Below, in pieces: positions 3,815 through 33,396 of a stretch of DNA of 43,533 bases. Every line of letters starts with the position of its first letter. Position 1 is the first letter of the stretch. The position numbers and the translations under genes are program-made. The notes beneath the pieces were generated by a model. It was not told where the DNA came from. It searched no databases and worked only from the letters and a program-made list of their open reading frames with translations. The stretch is from a virus: IMG/VR virus record IMGVR_UViG_3300037504_000146, positions 1 through 43,533 of that record, one strand, 5' to 3'.

Positions 3815-5113
3815 ATGCGACGCGTGATTTACGTAGTGGTCGGAGCGCTGCTCCTGCACCTGGCGGCCTCGCTGTGGGCGGGCAACGCGCTGACGAATCC
3901 GGCGGCAACCTACAAAGATCTCCTTCACCTCGACAACTCCAACGCCGGCGTCACCAGCTCGCTGCAGACGCTCGTGGATGGTGCCGGGAATGACACCGGC
4001 CTCTCGATCAGCACCACCGGGATCGGGGTACCGGCGGGGGGCGCTGGGACGCCGGGGGTTCTGTTTGGTCCTGCCACGGGTGACGGCGTGGGCCTGCATG
4101 CTTCTGGAGGTGGCGACCTACAGGTGTACAGTGGTGCAGGCGGGGCAGCGAATGTGGCTGCGAGCATTTTCACCATCTACGGTTCGTTCCCACACATGGG
4201 GGGAAATGGTTTTATTCTCGGAGACACGGACTACATACGATATTACTCTGGTGATGGTGCTGTGTACGACCTCAGCCTCAGACGCTACAACGACGGCACT
4301 GACACTTGGCTCGCCCTCTCCGCCGAAAACGACACCGACGGCGACGGCAAGCTCTCGCTGGGCGAACTACAGGTAGGCGGTACGGCGAGCGGTGGGCGGA
4401 TTCAGTATTCATCGCCATATATCGACTTCCGCAATAGCGCCGATGACGATTACAATAACATCCGAGGTCGGGTGGTGGCTGCGAGTTTCGGGGTGTTTGC
4501 GCCAAAAGTGTACGAAAACGTCACTATAGATCTGTACAACGGAAGTATAGATGACGCAGATACGAGTGTTAGCGTGTCAGGCGATCACGATGTGGACGAC
4601 GAAGACACGTCTGGCGAGTCTGTGGGCCTGAGCGTAGAGCAAACCTACGACATTGAGGACGCGGGCGATGACCATCCAACGGTGGATCTGCTGATTGACC
4701 GCACTGAGACCGCAGTGGATTCCGACGTAGACAACGAGCTGATCGCAGCCCGGGTGGGCGGTGCGGACGTCTGGACGCTGTCCACGGCAGGTGGGCAGGT
4801 GACTACACCAGACACCCTCACGGTAGCGGACAGTGGTGACGGCAACCCCGCCACCGGCACCTGGACCCCAGCAAGCTCCTACTGTGAGGCGACCTGCAAC
4901 GACTCTGACGGCTGCACTGTGACGGTCTCAGAGACCGGGGCCACAGAGGGCCACCAGGTCGAGATCATCAACGTGAGTGCCAACGCCATCACAATCTCTG
5001 ACTCGAGTGGTGTGACTGAATTGGATGGCAACTGGGCCGGCGGGCAGTACGACTCGCTGACCTTGCGATACATCGGTGACCGGTGGGTTGAGTCCGGCCG
5101 GTCGGATAACTAG
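3815..5113 (+). CDS. Fibre-like protein with an N-terminal signal peptide
   Basis: A 432-residue protein, ATG 3815 with GGAGAG 5 bases upstream. It opens with an apparent Sec signal peptide (MRRVIYVVVGALLLHLAASL, cleavage probably near residue 22). The rest is beta-rich and low-complexity, full of Gly/Asp/Thr/Ser: an early LDNSNAGVTSSLQTL segment, Gly-rich spacers, an Asp-rich middle (DGDHDVDDEDTSGE-like), and a C-terminal domain with cysteines (CEATCNDSDGC) ending in RYIGDRWVESG. The composition looks like a tail-fibre or adhesin-type repeat protein, yet it lies between terL and the portal rather than near the tail tip. The stretch near 4190-4560 is visibly less GC-rich, suggesting mosaic acquisition. 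Function unknown. Confidence 0.75.
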   Translation: MRRVIYVVVGALLLHLAASLWAGNALTNPAATYKDLLHLDNSNAGVTSSLQTLVDGAGNDTGLSISTTGIGVPAGGAGTPGVLFGPATGDGVGLHASGGGDLQVYSGAGGAANVAASIFTIYGSFPHMGGNGFILGDTDYIRYYSGDGAVYDLSLRRYNDGTDTWLALSAENDTDGDGKLSLGELQVGGTASGGRIQYSSPYIDFRNSADDDYNNIRGRVVAASFGVFAPKVYENVTIDLYNGSIDDADTSVSVSGDHDVDDEDTSGESVGLSVEQTYDIEDAGDDHPTVDLLIDRTETAVDSDVDNELIAARVGGADVWTLSTAGGQVTTPDTLTVADSGDGNPATGTWTPASSYCEATCNDSDGCTVTVSETGATEGHQVEIINVSANAITISDSSGVTELDGNWAGGQYDSLTLRYIGDRWVESGRSDN

Positions 5114-5526: not shown

Positions 5527-5919
5527 ATGGACAGAACCACGCTCGAGGATCAGCAGTCCAAGACGCGCAAGCGGCACACCGTGACGTTCGACGGCACCGA
5601 CGGCAACATCGTGGACGCCGGCGCTGGGCGGTGCTTCTGCGCGTACCACATCACCACGGCGCTTGACGCCTCCGACGTCACGATGACATTCAAGGGCTCG
5701 CCGCCGACCGATGACGATCGATCCGGAGAGACCGACGCCGCAGCAGCGGCGATGGAGAGCGTGTACAACACCGTCCAGTCGGAGGTATCGCACACGGTCC
5801 CGGGTGTGGGGTACTACCCGCTCTCACCCGTCGTTTTTCACGGCATACGCTACCTGCAGTGCATCTCCGACACGGACATCGACGGCAAGACCATGATCCT
5901 CATCAGCAAGCCGGTGTGA
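5527..5919 (+). CDS. Hypothetical structural-type protein (130 aa)
   Basis: The start ATG 5527 is 4 bp after the previous stop. The protein is beta-rich and acidic, with an Ala run (TDAAAAAMESVYNT) and a C-terminal strand pair ending TDIDGKTMILISKPV. It is small, with no signal peptide, and immediately precedes the portal gene. The composition resembles small head-associated or fibre-tip proteins but no family was recognised. One base separates its stop from the portal start codon, so the two are co-translated. Confidence 0.7.
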   Translation: MDRTTLEDQQSKTRKRHTVTFDGTDGNIVDAGAGRCFCAYHITTALDASDVTMTFKGSPPTDDDRSGETDAAAAAMESVYNTVQSEVSHTVPGVGYYPLSPVVFHGIRYLQCISDTDIDGKTMILISKPV

Positions 5920-8758: not shown

Positions 8759-9916
8759 ATGTCACAGAACAGACCTGACGAGCTGCCAGCTGGCGGTGAG
8801 CAGAGGTATGTCCGGGCCACGCTGGCGGTCACCGAGCTGGAGCTGCCGGAGGACGGCGCGGCCCCGGCCGAGCTGGTGGTGATGCCGTGGGGCGTGGTGG
8901 ATCTCCGAGACGCCGCCATCCGCGAGGCATTCGACGAGCCTGGCCAGCTCCTGGTGAACGAGCGCAGCGCCGAGGAGATCCCGGCCAACTACGCCAACCG
9001 CGATGTGGATGCGTTTGTGAACCTGGAGCACAACAGGTGGGGCGGCGCGGTCGGCTGGATCACCAGCGCGACAGCGGAGCCCGACCGCGGCGTGGTGGTC
9101 GGCGTCGATTGGACGCCGCGCGGCGAGCAGCTGATCCAGGATCGCGAGTACCGGTACACGTCGCTGGAGTGCATCCTCGACGCCTCGCCGTGGCTCGCCA
9201 ACGGAGACCCGGCGCCAGTCGTCGCCGTGACAGGTCTCGGCCTGGTCAATTATCCGGCGGTGATCTCACAGCCGCCGGTCCTGTACGACTCACTCACAGC
9301 CGCACTCTCCGCCGCGGGTGGTCCGCGCGTGGATGGTGACGGCTCCATGCCCCCGGTCGAGCCGGGGAGAAGGGGAGAAGCCGCTATGGACGGCAACTTC
9401 TGGCAGAAGCTCGTCTCCCGGATGACCGGGAGAGAGAGCATCGACGAGGCGGAGGCCGCATTGAGCGTGGCCGAGGTGCAGACCAAGCTCCGCCAGATCG
9501 ACACACTGACGACCCAGGTGGAGGAGCTGAGCACCCAGCTGACCACCGTGACCGCGGATCGGGATGCCGCTCGCGCCGAGCTGGCCGAGATGCAGGCCGG
9601 CGCCGTGCGCTCCGAGGCCGAGCGCGCCGTCGAGGCCGCGCTCAGCGAGGGCCGGATCTCGCCGGCGATGCGCGAGCAGGCGCTCGAGCAGGCCGAGGTG
9701 AATCTCGAGGCGTTCACCGCGCTGACCGCGCTGACCCCGGAGGGCACGTTCTCGGCGCCCACGGGCCGGCAGGTCTCGGACGCGGCCATCGCCTCGGCAG
9801 ATGCCACCGGGGACCGGACCGCAGAGGATGCGGAGATCCGCGCCTACGCGGCGCAGCACAACGTCCCGTACCACACAGCCGCGCTGGCCATCCGCAAGCA
9901 GCGGAAGGGGGTGTGA
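8759..9916 (+). CDS. Mu gpI-like prohead protease with C-terminal scaffold
   Basis: A 385-residue protein. The N-terminal protease domain (about 1-185) shows the Mu I-protein pattern: VNLEHNRWGGAVGWI (H91), a strand GVVVGVDWT, EYRYTSLECIL (S135) and VTGLGLVNYPAV. The C-terminal part (about 210-385) is a long, charged coiled coil (VEELSTQLTTVTADRDAARAE, shortened), typical of scaffold. In Mu the scaffold is also made alone from an internal start, and such a start is visible here (next entry). The protease removes scaffold and itself during head maturation. Catalytic residues are inferred by pattern. Confidence 0.88.
   Translation: MSQNRPDELPAGGEQRYVRATLAVTELELPEDGAAPAELVVMPWGVVDLRDAAIREAFDEPGQLLVNERSAEEIPANYANRDVDAFVNLEHNRWGGAVGWITSATAEPDRGVVVGVDWTPRGEQLIQDREYRYTSLECILDASPWLANGDPAPVVAVTGLGLVNYPAVISQPPVLYDSLTAALSAAGGPRVDGDGSMPPVEPGRRGEAAMDGNFWQKLVSRMTGRESIDEAEAALSVAEVQTKLRQIDTLTTQVEELSTQLTTVTADRDAARAELAEMQAGAVRSEAERAVEAALSEGRISPAMREQALEQAEVNLEAFTALTALTPEGTFSAPTGRQVSDAAIASADATGDRTAEDAEIRAYAAQHNVPYHTAALAIRKQRKGV
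9386..9916 (+). CDS. Internal-start scaffold protein (Mu gpZ-like)
   Basis: An in-frame ATG at 9386 (residue 210 of the protease protein) is preceded by a purine-rich GGGGAGAAGGGGAGAAG stretch ending 5 bases before it, a good ribosome-binding region in the middle of a gene. Translation from here gives a 176-residue protein comprising the coiled-coil scaffold alone, equivalent to Mu gene Z nested in gene I. The codons before it encode a Gly/Pro/Arg linker that separates the domains. Supported by sequence and by analogy with Mu. Confidence 0.65.
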   Translation: MDGNFWQKLVSRMTGRESIDEAEAALSVAEVQTKLRQIDTLTTQVEELSTQLTTVTADRDAARAELAEMQAGAVRSEAERAVEAALSEGRISPAMREQALEQAEVNLEAFTALTALTPEGTFSAPTGRQVSDAAIASADATGDRTAEDAEIRAYAAQHNVPYHTAALAIRKQRKGV

Positions 9917-26587: not shown

Positions 26588-26927
26588 GGTACAGCTCCGT
26601 GACGAGTCGCCACCCGGCCGCATCCTATGGTGCGGCCTGTTCCTGGCTATCGGTCTGCTGCTGGCGCTCGCCATGTGCGGGTGCACAAGCACGGACCCAT
26701 GCCCGCCGTGCGAACCGATCGTCACCGAGGTACCGGTGCCGGTCTATCCCGATGTGCCGGAGCTGCCGCCGCTCGATCTGGAGCCATTGCCGGAGCCGCC
26801 TGAGGATGCTGGTCCAGGGTGGTGGATCGAGCTACAGTTTGCCATCGCCGAGCGCGAGGCGCAGCTGCTGGAGCGTATTGACGAGCTGATGGCGGTGTTG
26901 CGGAAGCTGGGCGGCGGCGATGACTGA
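26574..26927 (+). CDS. Rz1: Outer-membrane spanin lipoprotein (Rz1-like)
   Basis: A 117-residue protein, ATG 26574, in a different frame overlapping the Rz-like gene. A hydrophobic signal (GLFLAIGLLLALAMCGC) contains C35 and C37; Gly36 before C37 fits a lipobox. The mature part is very Pro-rich (VPVPVYPDVPELPPL), the mark of Rz1 proteins, then a C-terminal helix (AIAEREAQLLERIDELMAVL). It is longer than lambda Rz1 (60 aa). Requires an outer membrane, so it points to a Gram-negative host. Confidence 0.85.
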   Translation: MNSRRVQLRDESPPGRILWCGLFLAIGLLLALAMCGCTSTDPCPPCEPIVTEVPVPVYPDVPELPPLDLEPLPEPPEDAGPGWWIELQFAIAEREAQLLERIDELMAVLRKLGGGDD

Positions 26928-28176
26928 GCCAATCCGCAACCGCATCATCGGCACCGGCGAGGAGGCGCCCGACCAGCTGCTGGCGAATCCGCGGAACTGG
27001 CGCGTTCACCCGAAGCAGCAACAGCGCGCCCTTGAGGGTGTGCTCAATGAAGTCGGCTGGGTGCAGCAGGTCATCGTAAACCAGCGCACCGGGCATCTGG
27101 TGGACGGACACCTGCGGGTATCGCTGGCCGAGCGACGCGGAGAGCCCACAGTGCCGGTGGTCTATGTGGACCTCAGCGAGACCGAGGAGGCCGAGATCCT
27201 GGCGACGCTGGATCCGCTCGCGGGGCTCGCCGTGCCAGACAACGAGAAGCTCAGTGAGCTGCTGGAGGATGTCAGCACGGCGGACGCGGCGGTGATGGAG
27301 ATGCTCGGCGAGCTGGCGAACGATGCCGGTATCGAGTGGGGCAAGCCGGAACCGCCGGAGGACCCGGGACCGGAGATTGACCGTGCCGAGGAGCTGCGCG
27401 AGGAGTGGGGCGTCGAGCGCGGTCAGGTGTGGGAGATTGCGAGCGCAGACGGCGAGCGTACGCACCGGGTGATGTGCGGGGACTCGACGAGCGCGGAGGA
27501 TGTGGCGCGGTTGATGGGTGGTGCAGTCGCACAGCTTGTCTACACCGATCCCCCTTACGGGGTTGACTACGATGGCGGGACTACCGCCAGGGAAAAACTG
27601 CAGGGAGACAACTCCACGGAGCTGTACACCCCAGCATGTCAAATGGCCGCAAAGTTTTCGGACCATGAATCCGCACTGTACCTGTGGCACGCAGGGGTAA
27701 ATGGTATTGCGGCTGCGGCTGCGGCTGCGGCTGCGGCTGCGGCTGCGGCTGCGGGATACGAGATTCGGAGCGAACTCGTGTGGAATAAAAACCAGGTTCA
27801 GTTCGGAGCCCTGTCGGCTCAGTATAAGCAGAAACATGAACCGTGTTATTACTGCTTCCGGCGCGGGTCTGCCCCCCGCTGGCTTGGGCCAACGAATGAG
27901 GTAACGGTGTGGGACTGTGATCGGTCACCCGTAAACGAGTGGCACCCGACGCAGAAACCGACAGAGCTGGCGTGCAGGGCGATGAAAAATAGCAGCGAAG
28001 GTGGCCATAATGTGCTGGATTTGTTTCTCGGCTCCGGCACCACCGCAGTAGCAGCCGAACAGCTCCACCGCACTTGCTACGGCATGGAGATCGAGCCGAA
28101 GTACGTAGCGGTGACGCTGGAAAGGCTGTCCGGCATGGGCATGGAGCCGCGGCTTGTGGAGAATCACGATGACTGA
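26920..28176 (+). CDS. ParB-domain / DNA methyltransferase fusion
   Basis: A 418-residue protein. Residues about 15-95 form a ParB/sulfiredoxin-like domain (NPRNWRVHPKQQQRALEGVL; LVDGHLRV). The methyltransferase follows: DPPY at 210-213 (motif IV) precedes FLGSGTT at 369-375 (SAM-binding motif I), the beta-class order of N6-adenine or N4-cytosine enzymes. Such ParB-MTase fusions are common in phages and protect DNA from host restriction. A run of 15 alanines (residues 264-278) encoded by GCGGCT repeats replaces part of a helix before RSELVWNKNQ. No partner restriction gene is present. Confidence 0.9.
   Translation: MTEPIRNRIIGTGEEAPDQLLANPRNWRVHPKQQQRALEGVLNEVGWVQQVIVNQRTGHLVDGHLRVSLAERRGEPTVPVVYVDLSETEEAEILATLDPLAGLAVPDNEKLSELLEDVSTADAAVMEMLGELANDAGIEWGKPEPPEDPGPEIDRAEELREEWGVERGQVWEIASADGERTHRVMCGDSTSAEDVARLMGGAVAQLVYTDPPYGVDYDGGTTAREKLQGDNSTELYTPACQMAAKFSDHESALYLWHAGVNGIAAAAAAAAAAAAAAAGYEIRSELVWNKNQVQFGALSAQYKQKHEPCYYCFRRGSAPRWLGPTNEVTVWDCDRSPVNEWHPTQKPTELACRAMKNSSEGGHNVLDLFLGSGTTAVAAEQLHRTCYGMEIEPKYVAVTLERLSGMGMEPRLVENHDD
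27709..27753 (+). repeat. Hexanucleotide microsatellite (GCGGCT)7.5 inside methyltransferase
   Basis: Seven and a half perfect copies of GCGGCT encode 15 consecutive alanines inside the catalytic domain. Six-base units keep the frame whatever the copy number, so gains and losses would change only helix length. Confidence 0.97.
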
Positions 28177-30442: not shown

Positions 30443-30723
30443 TCCGCCTCGACGAAACCACCCGGATGGAGAACACGTGGTCGAGCGATCCTCGCCGGGG
30501 TCCGGAGTCTACCGGGGGCTCCGACCCGGCATCCTTGAAGTCTCCTCACTCCTCCTTCATTAGCCCCGGCGGCGTCGGTGTCGCCGGGGCGCCTTTGTTG
30601 GAGGCGGCGCTCCGTGAGGCGAACGTCGCCTATCACGAGCATGGCTCTGCCAGCTCCGAGTATCGCGTCGCGCTGGCGGAGCTGGAGATCGTCATCCATC
30701 GAGCACAGTGGGCGGAGGTTTGA
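30439..30723 (+). CDS. Unknown protein upstream of Cas12 (94 aa)
   Basis: GTG 30439 overlaps the HTH stop; ATG 30466 is an alternative. The N-terminal half is low-complexity Ser/Pro/Gly, while residues about 53-94 form an amphipathic helical pair (PLLEAALREANVAYHEHGSA; LAELEIVIHRAQWAEV). A strong hairpin (30563-30590) lies in its middle, so a shorter product from a later start is possible. The stop is 1 bp before the cas12 ATG, with the GGAGG site inside the last codons, so it is coupled to cas12. No family was recognised. Confidence 0.55.
   Translation: MIRLDETTRMENTWSSDPRRGPESTGGSDPASLKSPHSSFISPGGVGVAGAPLLEAALREANVAYHEHGSASSEYRVALAELEIVIHRAQWAEV
30563..30590 (+). terminator. GC hairpin upstream of cas12
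   Basis: Stem GCCCCGGCG (30563-30571) with CGCCGGGGC (30582-30590) and a 10-nt loop, followed by GCCTTTG. It resembles an intrinsic terminator with a weak T-run and lies between the HTH gene and cas12, inside the 94-residue reading frame. It might limit cas12 expression. Confidence 0.45.
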
Positions 30724-30724
30724 A

Positions 30725-32482
30725 ATGGCATACGGAAACATGAGTCAGCGGACCCGCGTCTACGAGTACGGTTGCGGCGAGCCGACTACCAACGCCGACC
30801 GGCTGGATGAGCAGCTATTGCTCGCCCACAGGTACAAGAACAAGCTCACGGAGATTGAGCGGGCGCGCCGCGAGAAGGTGCGCGCCATCATCTCTGAGCA
30901 CGGCGACGTGGCGCCGCTTGAAGACGAGGTGGCGGCCCAGGCCTCCACGCTGAAGGAGCTACGCGAGACGATCAAGCGAGCACGGGTGGCGGCTCGCTCG
31001 CGCGGTGCCGATACTGGCCTGCTCGAGCGCCAGGCGAAGGAGCTGGCGTCGCAGCTCAAGGAGCGCCGCGCTGAGCTGAGGGCGATCCGTAAGGCCATCG
31101 CCAACGATCCGCAAACGAAGGCGCGGCTCCATGAAACGGACCAGCAGGCGCGTGATGCCGTAAAGGCGACTCGGGCCGAGTCTGGCCTGTACTGGGGGAC
31201 CTACCTCAGCGTGGAGCAGGACATGGATCGGGCACGGAAGGGCCGCATGGACCCGCGCTTCCGCCGCTGGACTGGCGACGGTCGTGTGTCCGTGCAGATG
31301 CAGGGCGGTGCGACGGTGGCAGCGGTGCTGGGCGGCGACGACACCCGGCTGCAGATCGACCCGCCAGATCCAGCGGCGTGGTCATCTCCGGTGCGCGGTG
31401 AGCGCCGACGTGCGGCGCGTACGACGTGTCGTATCCGTGTCGGCTCGATGGGGCGCGCGCCGCTGTGGTGCGAGCTCCCCGTCACGATGCACCGACCGCT
31501 ACCGGCGAACGGCCGGATCAAGTGGGCGCACGTCCACCGCAGTCGCGTCGGCCGCAAGCACCGGTACAAGCTGCTGGTGGTGGTGAGCTTCGAGGAGCAC
31601 GAACCGACGCCATCAGGCTCGGACGTTGTGGCTATTGATCTCGGATGGCGCGCCGTAGACGTGCCACAGGACGGCGAGGCGCGCCGCGCGCTGCGTGTCG
31701 GGTACTGGCAGGACACCAGCGGAGACCATGGCCAGGTGCTGTTGGAGCCCGGGATTCTCGAACGGCTGAAGACCTGCGAACGTCTTCGGTCGATCCGTGA
31801 CCAACACCTAGATGAGATGCGACCGCGGCTCGTAGAGTGGGCAAGGGACGCCGACCTGCCGGAGTGGTGGGCGGAACGGGCCGAGACTCTGGCTCAGTGG
31901 AGATCTGCAGCGAGGCTGGCCGCACTAATGATGCACTGGCGCGAGAATCGGTTCGACGGAGACGAGGAGATGTTCGCCGCGGCTGAGGCATGGCGCAAGC
32001 AGGATGCCCACCTGTACGACTGGGAGTCGAATCTCCGGGACAAGGTGACCCGTCGTCGTCGCGAGGCGTACCGCGTGTTCGCAGCGCAGGTGGCGAGGCG
32101 GTACAAAGCGGTAATCCTGGAACACTTTGATCTACGGCGTGTGGCTCGGAAAGCTGCGCCGGAAGGTGAGGCGGACGCGAACCAGGCCGCCCGGCATCAT
32201 CGGACGTGGGCGGCTGTGAGCACCCTGCGACAGGCCATCATCGACGCGTGCGAGCGCGAGGGGCTGGATGTGATCACGATGCCGAGCGCGTACACGACTC
32301 GGACGTGTCACCAGTGCGGCTCGGTGGAGTCGTGGGACCAAGCGGAGCAGATCCTGCACCGCTGCTCGCAGTGTGGTGATGTGTGGGACCAGGATCGTAA
32401 CGCGGCAATCAACCTACTGGCTGCCGGTCTTGGCGAGCGGTGCAGTGACGACGAAAAGGCGGGGAGCGCTCGCGCTTTCTAG
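30725..32482 (+). CDS. cas12m: Compact Cas12 effector, Cas12m-like (type V)
   Basis: A 585-residue protein, ATG 30725 with GGAGG 7 bases upstream. The N-terminal half is helical and basic (residues about 24-150, QLLLAHRYKNKLTEIERARR), followed by beta-rich wedge-like segments (GLYWGTYLSVEQDM; APLWCELPVTMHRPLPANGR). The RuvC domain has VVAIDLGWR (D305), AVILEHFDLRR (E466) and WDQDRNAAINLL (D557); the zinc ribbon has CHQC (528-531) and CSQC (547-550). From memory the segment order matches Cas12m (formerly V-U1/c2c4), an RNA-guided DNA-binding effector whose studied members bind without cutting. Here the D-E-D triad looks intact. A CRISPR array begins 126 bp after the stop. A free-standing TnpB is unlikely given the size and array. 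Confidence 0.88.
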   Translation: MAYGNMSQRTRVYEYGCGEPTTNADRLDEQLLLAHRYKNKLTEIERARREKVRAIISEHGDVAPLEDEVAAQASTLKELRETIKRARVAARSRGADTGLLERQAKELASQLKERRAELRAIRKAIANDPQTKARLHETDQQARDAVKATRAESGLYWGTYLSVEQDMDRARKGRMDPRFRRWTGDGRVSVQMQGGATVAAVLGGDDTRLQIDPPDPAAWSSPVRGERRRAARTTCRIRVGSMGRAPLWCELPVTMHRPLPANGRIKWAHVHRSRVGRKHRYKLLVVVSFEEHEPTPSGSDVVAIDLGWRAVDVPQDGEARRALRVGYWQDTSGDHGQVLLEPGILERLKTCERLRSIRDQHLDEMRPRLVEWARDADLPEWWAERAETLAQWRSAARLAALMMHWRENRFDGDEEMFAAAEAWRKQDAHLYDWESNLRDKVTRRRREAYRVFAAQVARRYKAVILEHFDLRRVARKAAPEGEADANQAARHHRTWAAVSTLRQAIIDACEREGLDVITMPSAYTTRTCHQCGSVESWDQAEQILHRCSQCGDVWDQDRNAAINLLAAGLGERCSDDEKAGSARAF

Positions 32483-32608
32483 GTTATTGGATTCAGGCAG
32501 GTTACAGCCGGCCAGTGTGCTCTTTGAAAACTTGAAACCGTCGCTGAATGACAGCTCTCGAAAAGAGAGATGTAACCCTTTAGCGGCCGGCAGTTTGCGC
32601 CGGCCGCC
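32483..32608 (+). promoter_or_regulatory. CRISPR leader with candidate promoter and hairpins
   Basis: The 126-bp gap between cas12 and the first repeat is less GC-rich than its surroundings in its middle. It holds ATGACA (32548-32553), 17 nt, TGTAAC (32571-32576), a weak promoter-like pair that would start RNA near 32583. A CTCTC-GAAAA-GAGAG hairpin lies at 32555-32569. A perfect 9-bp hairpin GCGGCCGGC/GCCGGCCGC (32583-32591 with 32599-32607) ends one base before the first repeat. No sequence complementary to the repeat was seen, so no tracrRNA is apparent. Confidence 0.6.
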
Positions 32609-32838
32609 GTCGCAACGCCTGCTCATGGGCTTCATGCATGAGACTACGCCGAACGCGTCTTGGACGACTACCGCCAGCGGGTCGCAACGCCTGCTCATGG
32701 GCTTTGTCTGTGAGACCCGCGGCCCGGGCGGATGTACGGGGGACCGTCGCCAGGTCGCAACGCCTGCTCGTGGGCTTCATGCATGAGACCTCGGCGATCG
32801 CCAGGGCGACGTGCGTCGCAACGCCTGCTCATGGGCTT
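32609..32838 (+). CRISPR. Mini CRISPR array: three full repeats, one degenerate, three spacers
   Basis: Repeats of 36 nt at 32609-32644, 32681-32716 and 32754-32789; a fourth (32815-32838) keeps only its first 24 nt. All begin GTCGCAACGCCTGCTC and full ones end GAGAC. Spacers: 32645-32680 (36), 32717-32753 (37) and 32790-32814 (25), all different. Within the repeat, positions 14-19 (CTCATG) pair with 29-34 (CATGAG); repeat 2 has T29/G30 and repeat 3 has G17, both keeping the stem through G-U pairs. The degenerate repeat is distal to cas12, so the leader is on the cas12 side and transcription is rightward. No cas1, cas2 or cas4 is present. Confidence 0.95.
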
Positions 32839-33085: not shown

Positions 33086-33396
33086 GCGGCACACACTCGT
33101 ACTACGACCCAGCGTTGGTGGCTGACGACGTGATCCGCGCGGTGGAGCTGCACGTGGAGGACCCGGAGATCCGTCGCCGGGTATTCGTCAGCGCGATGCA
33201 GCGGCGACGAATGGCGTGTGAGTACCGCGCCGAGATCACCAAGAACGAGCAGGAGTGGCGCTTTTACATTGAAGATGCGGAGCGGCTGCGTCGGCAGATC
33301 AGGCTGCTTGACCCACCAAAAACGACAACCGCCGCGACGGAACGCGACGGTCGACACCAAGGTGCCTCACACACAGTGTCGGTCACGGACGCGTAG
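33082..33396 (+). CDS. Hypothetical protein (104 aa)
   Basis: ATG 33082 overlaps the previous stop. The product is largely helical and charged (PALVADDVIRAVELHVEDPE; RRRMACEYRAEITKNEQEWR; IEDAERLRRQIRLL) with a disordered Thr/Asp C-terminus. Coupled to its neighbours in the early operon. No family was recognised. Confidence 0.65.
   Translation: MSGTHSYYDPALVADDVIRAVELHVEDPEIRRRVFVSAMQRRRMACEYRAEITKNEQEWRFYIEDAERLRRQIRLLDPPKTTTAATERDGRHQGASHTVSVTDA

Follow-up and report, generated by a model that had tools for sequence, protein, structure and literature searches.

Is a short and variable CRISPR array in a virus still in use, and do the differences between its repeats point to selection on the structure of the CRISPR RNA (crRNA)? 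The question is raised by the virus entry IMGVR_UViG_3300037504_000146, a caudovirus with a bacterial host; its 43,533 bases are the whole stretch of DNA analysed here and are called the window. According to the original prediction, positions 14-19 of each repeat pair with positions 29-34, all changes falling in this stem stay pairable, and the array is likely to be used. Two features had been missed: the effector gene cas12m next to the array, and a truncated fourth repeat. The array starts 126 nt past the stop codon of cas12m on the same strand and consists of three full 36-nt repeats and the truncated copy (Table 1). We consider it very likely that this is a type V-M system of a phage, made up of cas12m and an array whose three repeat-spacer units are followed by a truncated repeat, and that helix changes in it are kept mainly when they are pairable.

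Table 1. Features of the cas12m locus (positions in the window).
Feature	Position	Strand	Description
cas12m	30725..32482	+	585 aa, ATG start; open frame from GTG at 30578
Leader	32483..32608	+	Assigned by position, from cas12m to the first repeat; arrays of relatives likewise begin shortly after cas12m
9-bp GC-rich perfect hairpin	32583..32607	+	Directly before repeat 1; from sequence and fold
Repeat 1 (R1)	32609..32644	+	Stem I 9-11:20-22, pseudoknot helix 14-19:29-34, G13, A35
Spacer 1 (S1)	32645..32680	+	36 nt
Repeat 2 (R2)	32681..32716	+	C29T and A30G (two G-U pairs); loop changes at 25, 26 and 28
Spacer 2 (S2)	32717..32753	+	37 nt
Repeat 3 (R3)	32754..32789	+	A17G is the sole difference (one G-U pair)
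Spacer 3 (S3)	32790..32814	+	25 nt
Repeat 4, truncated	32815..32838	+	24 nt, identical to the first 24 nt of R1; leader-distal

Genes for terminase, portal, head protease, major head protein, minor tail and tape measure proteins lie on one side of cas12m and the array, and genes for a methyltransferase, an SbcCD-like protein, a helicase and replication proteins lie around and after them. One open reading frame of the window (26920-28176) is a phage fusion whose N-terminal part resembles ParB-like partition proteins and whose C-terminal part resembles DNA methyltransferases. The integrase family PF00589 was absent from the 43,533-base record, and Cas1 (PF01867) was found neither in the window nor in 19 other records (20 in total; controls positive). 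The window shows two traits of V-M systems, a CRISPR array beside the effector gene and the lack of an adaptation module.

The cas12m product carries the RuvC motifs AIDLGWR (D), ILEHFDL (E) and DQDRNAA (D), which form a D-E-D triad, and a C-terminal zinc ribbon (CxxC..CxxC). Among the PADLOC models, Cas12u1 (3e-132) and a model labelled Cas12f (1.9e-132) scored equally, whereas among solved structures Cas12m surpassed Cas12f by more than 300 bits (374 vs. 33), with matches to Cas12m 23vw_A (7e-111) and MmCas12m2 8hhl (9e-52) in the PDB. Type V-F Cas12f and TnpB share the RuvC domain and the zinc-ribbon C-terminus with the window protein, but their similarity to it is far weaker. In an alignment with nine plasmid and phage relatives, a His-Arg dipeptide that aligns with His269-Arg270 of MmCas12m2 was invariant in all ten Cas12m proteins. 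Judged by its sequence, the effector belongs to the Cas12m family (CRISPR-Cas subtype V-M). Cas12m proteins with a D-E-D triad have been reported not to cut double-stranded DNA (PMC11013384), and by analogy, DNA binding without double-strand cleavage is predicted for the window protein, which has the same triad.

The crRNA of MmCas12m2 forms a six-pair pseudoknot, C(-22)-C(-17):G(-8)-G(-3), with a stem stacked on it, and next to the pseudoknot a non-canonical G(-23):A(-2) pair is recognised by the WED domain, with His269/Arg270 among the residues involved (PMC10442227); a triplex and a pseudoknot are also present in the crRNA of GoCas12m (PMC11013384). The window repeat has the layout of the MmCas12m2 scaffold, with G13 and A35, helix 14-19:29-34 and stem I (9-11:20-22), and the elements of this repeat-derived pseudoknot scaffold with a G:A pair, a trait of V-M systems, lie at homologous places and covary over 23 systems. 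The predicted stem is therefore the pseudoknot helix seen in solved complexes of Cas12m with its crRNA and not a plain stem, and positions 20-22 are the second strand of stem I. The pairing itself had been read correctly: positions 14-19 (CTCATG) and 29-34 (CATGAG) of repeat 1 form six Watson-Crick pairs, the changes in repeat 2 give the wobbles G19-U29 and U18-G30, and the change in repeat 3 gives G17-U31. The changes in the helix are indeed pairable and the others do fall between its strands, but this region is not a plain loop, since it contains the 3' strand of stem I.

Repeat 2 calls for caution. Its two wobbles weaken the helix (-3.1 instead of -6.9 kcal/mol), and the changes in its loop enable positions 20-22 to pair with 26-28, which creates a nested 9-bp hairpin (-9.7 kcal/mol) in competition with stem I. 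As modelled, repeat 2 is not neutral, and to regard its loop changes as neutral appears too simple. The same hairpin extension is present in the main repeats of two relatives (L019 and L038), so that the RNA of repeat 2 need not be disabled. A hairpin at the leader-repeat junction that limits extraneous crRNA is described in a report on Cas13 arrays (PMC13187072); a structured leader RNA was rejected for the window because the stability of the region is not unusual (z = -0.96). An Rfam search of the window gave no match. In a sequence-only check for a tracrRNA, which V-M systems do without, complementarity to repeat 3 was confined to a 16-nt stretch (88%) at 33245-33260, inside a downstream coding frame.

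The pairing pattern of the window array is real, yet within chance if this array is taken alone. The probability that its three changes all stay paired is 0.13 under the substitution spectrum of the unpaired repeat positions of relatives and 0.16 if the observed number of changes is placed at random. Selection on crRNA structure, which had been deduced from these three changes, is supported by sequence comparison across the V-M family and not by the changes themselves.

Relatives were collected by protein alignment, which yielded 24 IMG/VR loci (including some near-identical pairs and one marginal hit with E = 1e-5) and one bacterial metagenome-assembled genome (MAG), and were supplemented from plasmid and phage records; their repeats were gathered by direct repetition, ignoring structure. 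Close relatives of the window were found neither by single-protein search nor by megablast in phages nor with a repeat-derived pattern in IMG/VR. For a comparison between systems, each of 23 systems contributed a single repeat to an alignment made without regard to structure, and the nine pairs of the helix and stem I were scored. Paired bases occupied 96.6% of the cells, compared to 64.8% after shuffling (reached by none of 500 shuffles) and 28-44% with slid partners, and the covariation score was 0.793 vs. 0.174. Two-sided changes occurred in some system for each of the nine pairs, including all three pairs of stem I, where 94.2% of the cells were paired. The covariation check on repeats of relatives that the original prediction had proposed thus came out in its favour, with strong covariation of the helix across the 23 V-M systems.

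The same tendency is found inside arrays. Among 24 arrays, the pseudoknot helix had 0.066 substitutions per site and stem I 0.078, compared to 0.147 for the 5' tail and 0.228 for other unpaired positions. Each distinct change was counted once per array, and the P values that follow are approximate because the copies of one array share ancestry. With the window included, 23 of 31 one-sided helix changes were still paired (11.6 expected); in the 23 arrays other than that of the window, which are mostly phage-borne, the ratio was 20 of 28 (10.1 expected; P = 5e-6), and together with the two-sided changes (11 of 13 paired, 6.1 expected; P = 0.006), 31 of their 41 distinct helix changes preserved a pair. 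Unpaired changes in related arrays, which had been named as counter-evidence, do exist: pairing was retained in 34 of 44 distinct events and lost in 10, with half of these losses at the terminal pair on the loop side or the pair adjacent to it, so that pair retention is a tendency and not a rule. The non-Watson-Crick helix pairs, window included, comprised 20 G-U and 3 A-C pairs, although the transition spectrum predicts only 56% G-U (P = 0.0016; 0.006 without the window), which points to a constraint on the crRNA-sense strand. All helix pairs were intact in 68 of the 76 internal copies that carried at least three changes, compared to 18.7 ± 3.6 under random placement. Stem I showed no pairing excess among one-sided changes (9 of 28 vs. 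7.4 expected) and a weak excess among two-sided changes (8 of 10 vs. 4.6 expected; P = 0.03).

In the mechanism that we propose, the array would be transcribed in the sense of cas12m, together with or after this gene, and each repeat would fold into an H-type pseudoknot (stem I and helix 14-19:29-34, with G13/A35 alongside) that is bound by Cas12m, with the spacer as guide. V-M effectors are characterised by self-processing of pre-crRNA and by PAM-dependent targeting. The pre-crRNA would be cut within the repeat, as has been shown for other Cas12m proteins (PMC11013384), and the complex, by analogy with characterised Cas12m, would bind matching DNA and block transcription without cutting. Its most likely opponents, judging from the kind of system, would be competing phages or plasmids. 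While the repeats drift, helix changes would be retained chiefly if the pair survives through G-U pairing or compensation, and old crRNAs would stay loadable. It is fair to infer that the window array is in use.

The spacers gave little indication of what is targeted. Spacers 1 and 2 had no match in the phage collection, and spacer 1 had no exact seed match (18-20 nt) in IMG/VR. Five exact seed matches of 18-20 nt to spacer 2 were present in IMG/VR, none of which extended past the seed (23-25 of 37), and among ten seed matches to spacer 3, the best (24 of 25, in a viral contig) was not accepted because the stretch is GC-rich and codon-like. A plasmid search returned only matches with E > 0.1, to parts of the array. 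The array spacers of two relatives (L018 and L029) likewise had no useful phage target.

Several other explanations have to be weighed against a functional V-M system. The array might be a decaying, unused remnant whose stem changes happened to be transitions that leave G-U pairs, as could be suspected from the mere three changes and their chance probabilities (0.13-0.16), the small size of the array, its truncated last repeat and 25-nt last spacer, and the lack of cas1 and of convincing targets. We regard this as unlikely: the open frame of cas12m is intact over 585 aa, with the RuvC and zinc-ribbon motifs in place, G13, A35, C36 and stem I are kept in all three full repeats, and equally diverged copies in relatives strongly retain the structure. 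An action of the array on the phage's or the host's own genes, as a regulatory crRNA of the CreA/CreR kind, would suit the nature of Cas12m as a natural DNA-binding silencer (PMC11013384), the small number of spacers, and the isolated repeats that precede cas12m in four relatives (L024, L027, L031 and L038); degenerate repeats are moreover documented for CreTA modules (PMC9458426). The window itself, however, has no isolated repeat upstream of cas12m, and its spacers have no seed matches longer than 11 nt within the window and none at the cas12m promoter, so that an autoregulatory guide on this promoter was rejected and self-regulation is very improbable.

It is also conceivable that what is conserved in the repeats is their DNA or a plain hairpin, e.g., an integration site for a host Cas1-Cas2 or a terminator, and not a pseudoknot bound by Cas12m. 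Single-strand folding of repeats 1 and 2 does produce a hairpin, and divergence tends to grow with distance from cas12m (18 of 21 arrays), which suggests that addition at the leader end probably happens. The hairpins obtained with RNAfold were nevertheless set aside as crRNA structure because a nested fold is unable to contain both helices; stem I, which is incompatible with the helix in such a fold, also covaries between systems, and the known structure of Cas12m crRNA agrees with the pseudoknot. Neither a constraint at the DNA level nor one on the opposite strand predicts the large excess of G-U over A-C pairs, and we give this explanation hardly any credence.

A functional V-M system has well-known counterparts. 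V-M systems (formerly V-U1) of Mycolicibacterium mucogenicum, Gordonia otitidis and Allomeiothermus silvanus share with the window an effector of approximately 600 aa with RuvC and TNB zinc ribbon, 36-nt repeats, the same pseudoknot, an array downstream on the same strand and the absence of adaptation genes, and V-M has been noted on plasmids and some prophages (PMC11656645). The window differs from these systems by its location in a 43.5-kb caudovirus record, its only three units and the repeat variants inside the array, and its Cas12m is 37% identical to the Allomeiothermus silvanus protein in an alignment. Virus Rctr197k (KX853510.1) is likewise a phage record that contains a relative of cas12m (37%) and a downstream array with the same pseudoknot; its array, which is annotated as CRISPR and lies beside a feature 'similar to transposase', differs in having 22 repeat copies that vary mostly in the loop and the 5' tail and keep the helix in all 22. 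Viral CRISPR mini-arrays, which have one or two spacers and borrow the effector of the host (PMC11656645), are also virus-borne and poor in spacers, whereas the array in the window adjoins its own effector gene.

The system is therefore of a known kind, and what is more interesting is that the crRNA pseudoknot persists in many repeats of phage V-M arrays despite divergence within the array. We tentatively suggest, as a possibility somewhat short of an even chance, that in phage V-M systems lacking cas1 the leader-distal repeats diverge freely in the loop and the 5' tail and keep the helix by G-U pairs and compensation, so that each archived crRNA would be subject to selection over long periods. 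Such an array would be a stock of guides that changes slowly and stays in use, and not a quickly overwritten memory. Pair retention amid repeat variation within an array is a sign, from DNA sequence alone, that old spacers are still used, and also gives the transcribed strand. A set of viruses carries guides of its own together with a CRISPR effector of the DNA-binding type, and their arrays supply many natural scaffold variants for testing which pairs Cas12m needs.

In L024 (3698-3967), L027 (3897-3966), L031 (3811-3908) and L038 (3818-3854), isolated repeats precede cas12m by up to approximately 300 nt. The pseudoknot helix is fully paired in most of them, and the sequence 3' of these repeats has no seed match elsewhere in its own locus; they could be an element of the 5' UTR or belong to a split array. 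In one repeat (4991-5026) of the array of a Methylomonas plasmid (L008), a full compensatory change in stem I (C9G and G22C) is accompanied by the same A17G wobble as in repeat 3 of the window. In another array (L022, 5870-9025), approximately 3 kb of other sequence separates a repeat that breaks off near 5900 from the continuation of the array near 8973, a pattern that resembles the insertion of an element.
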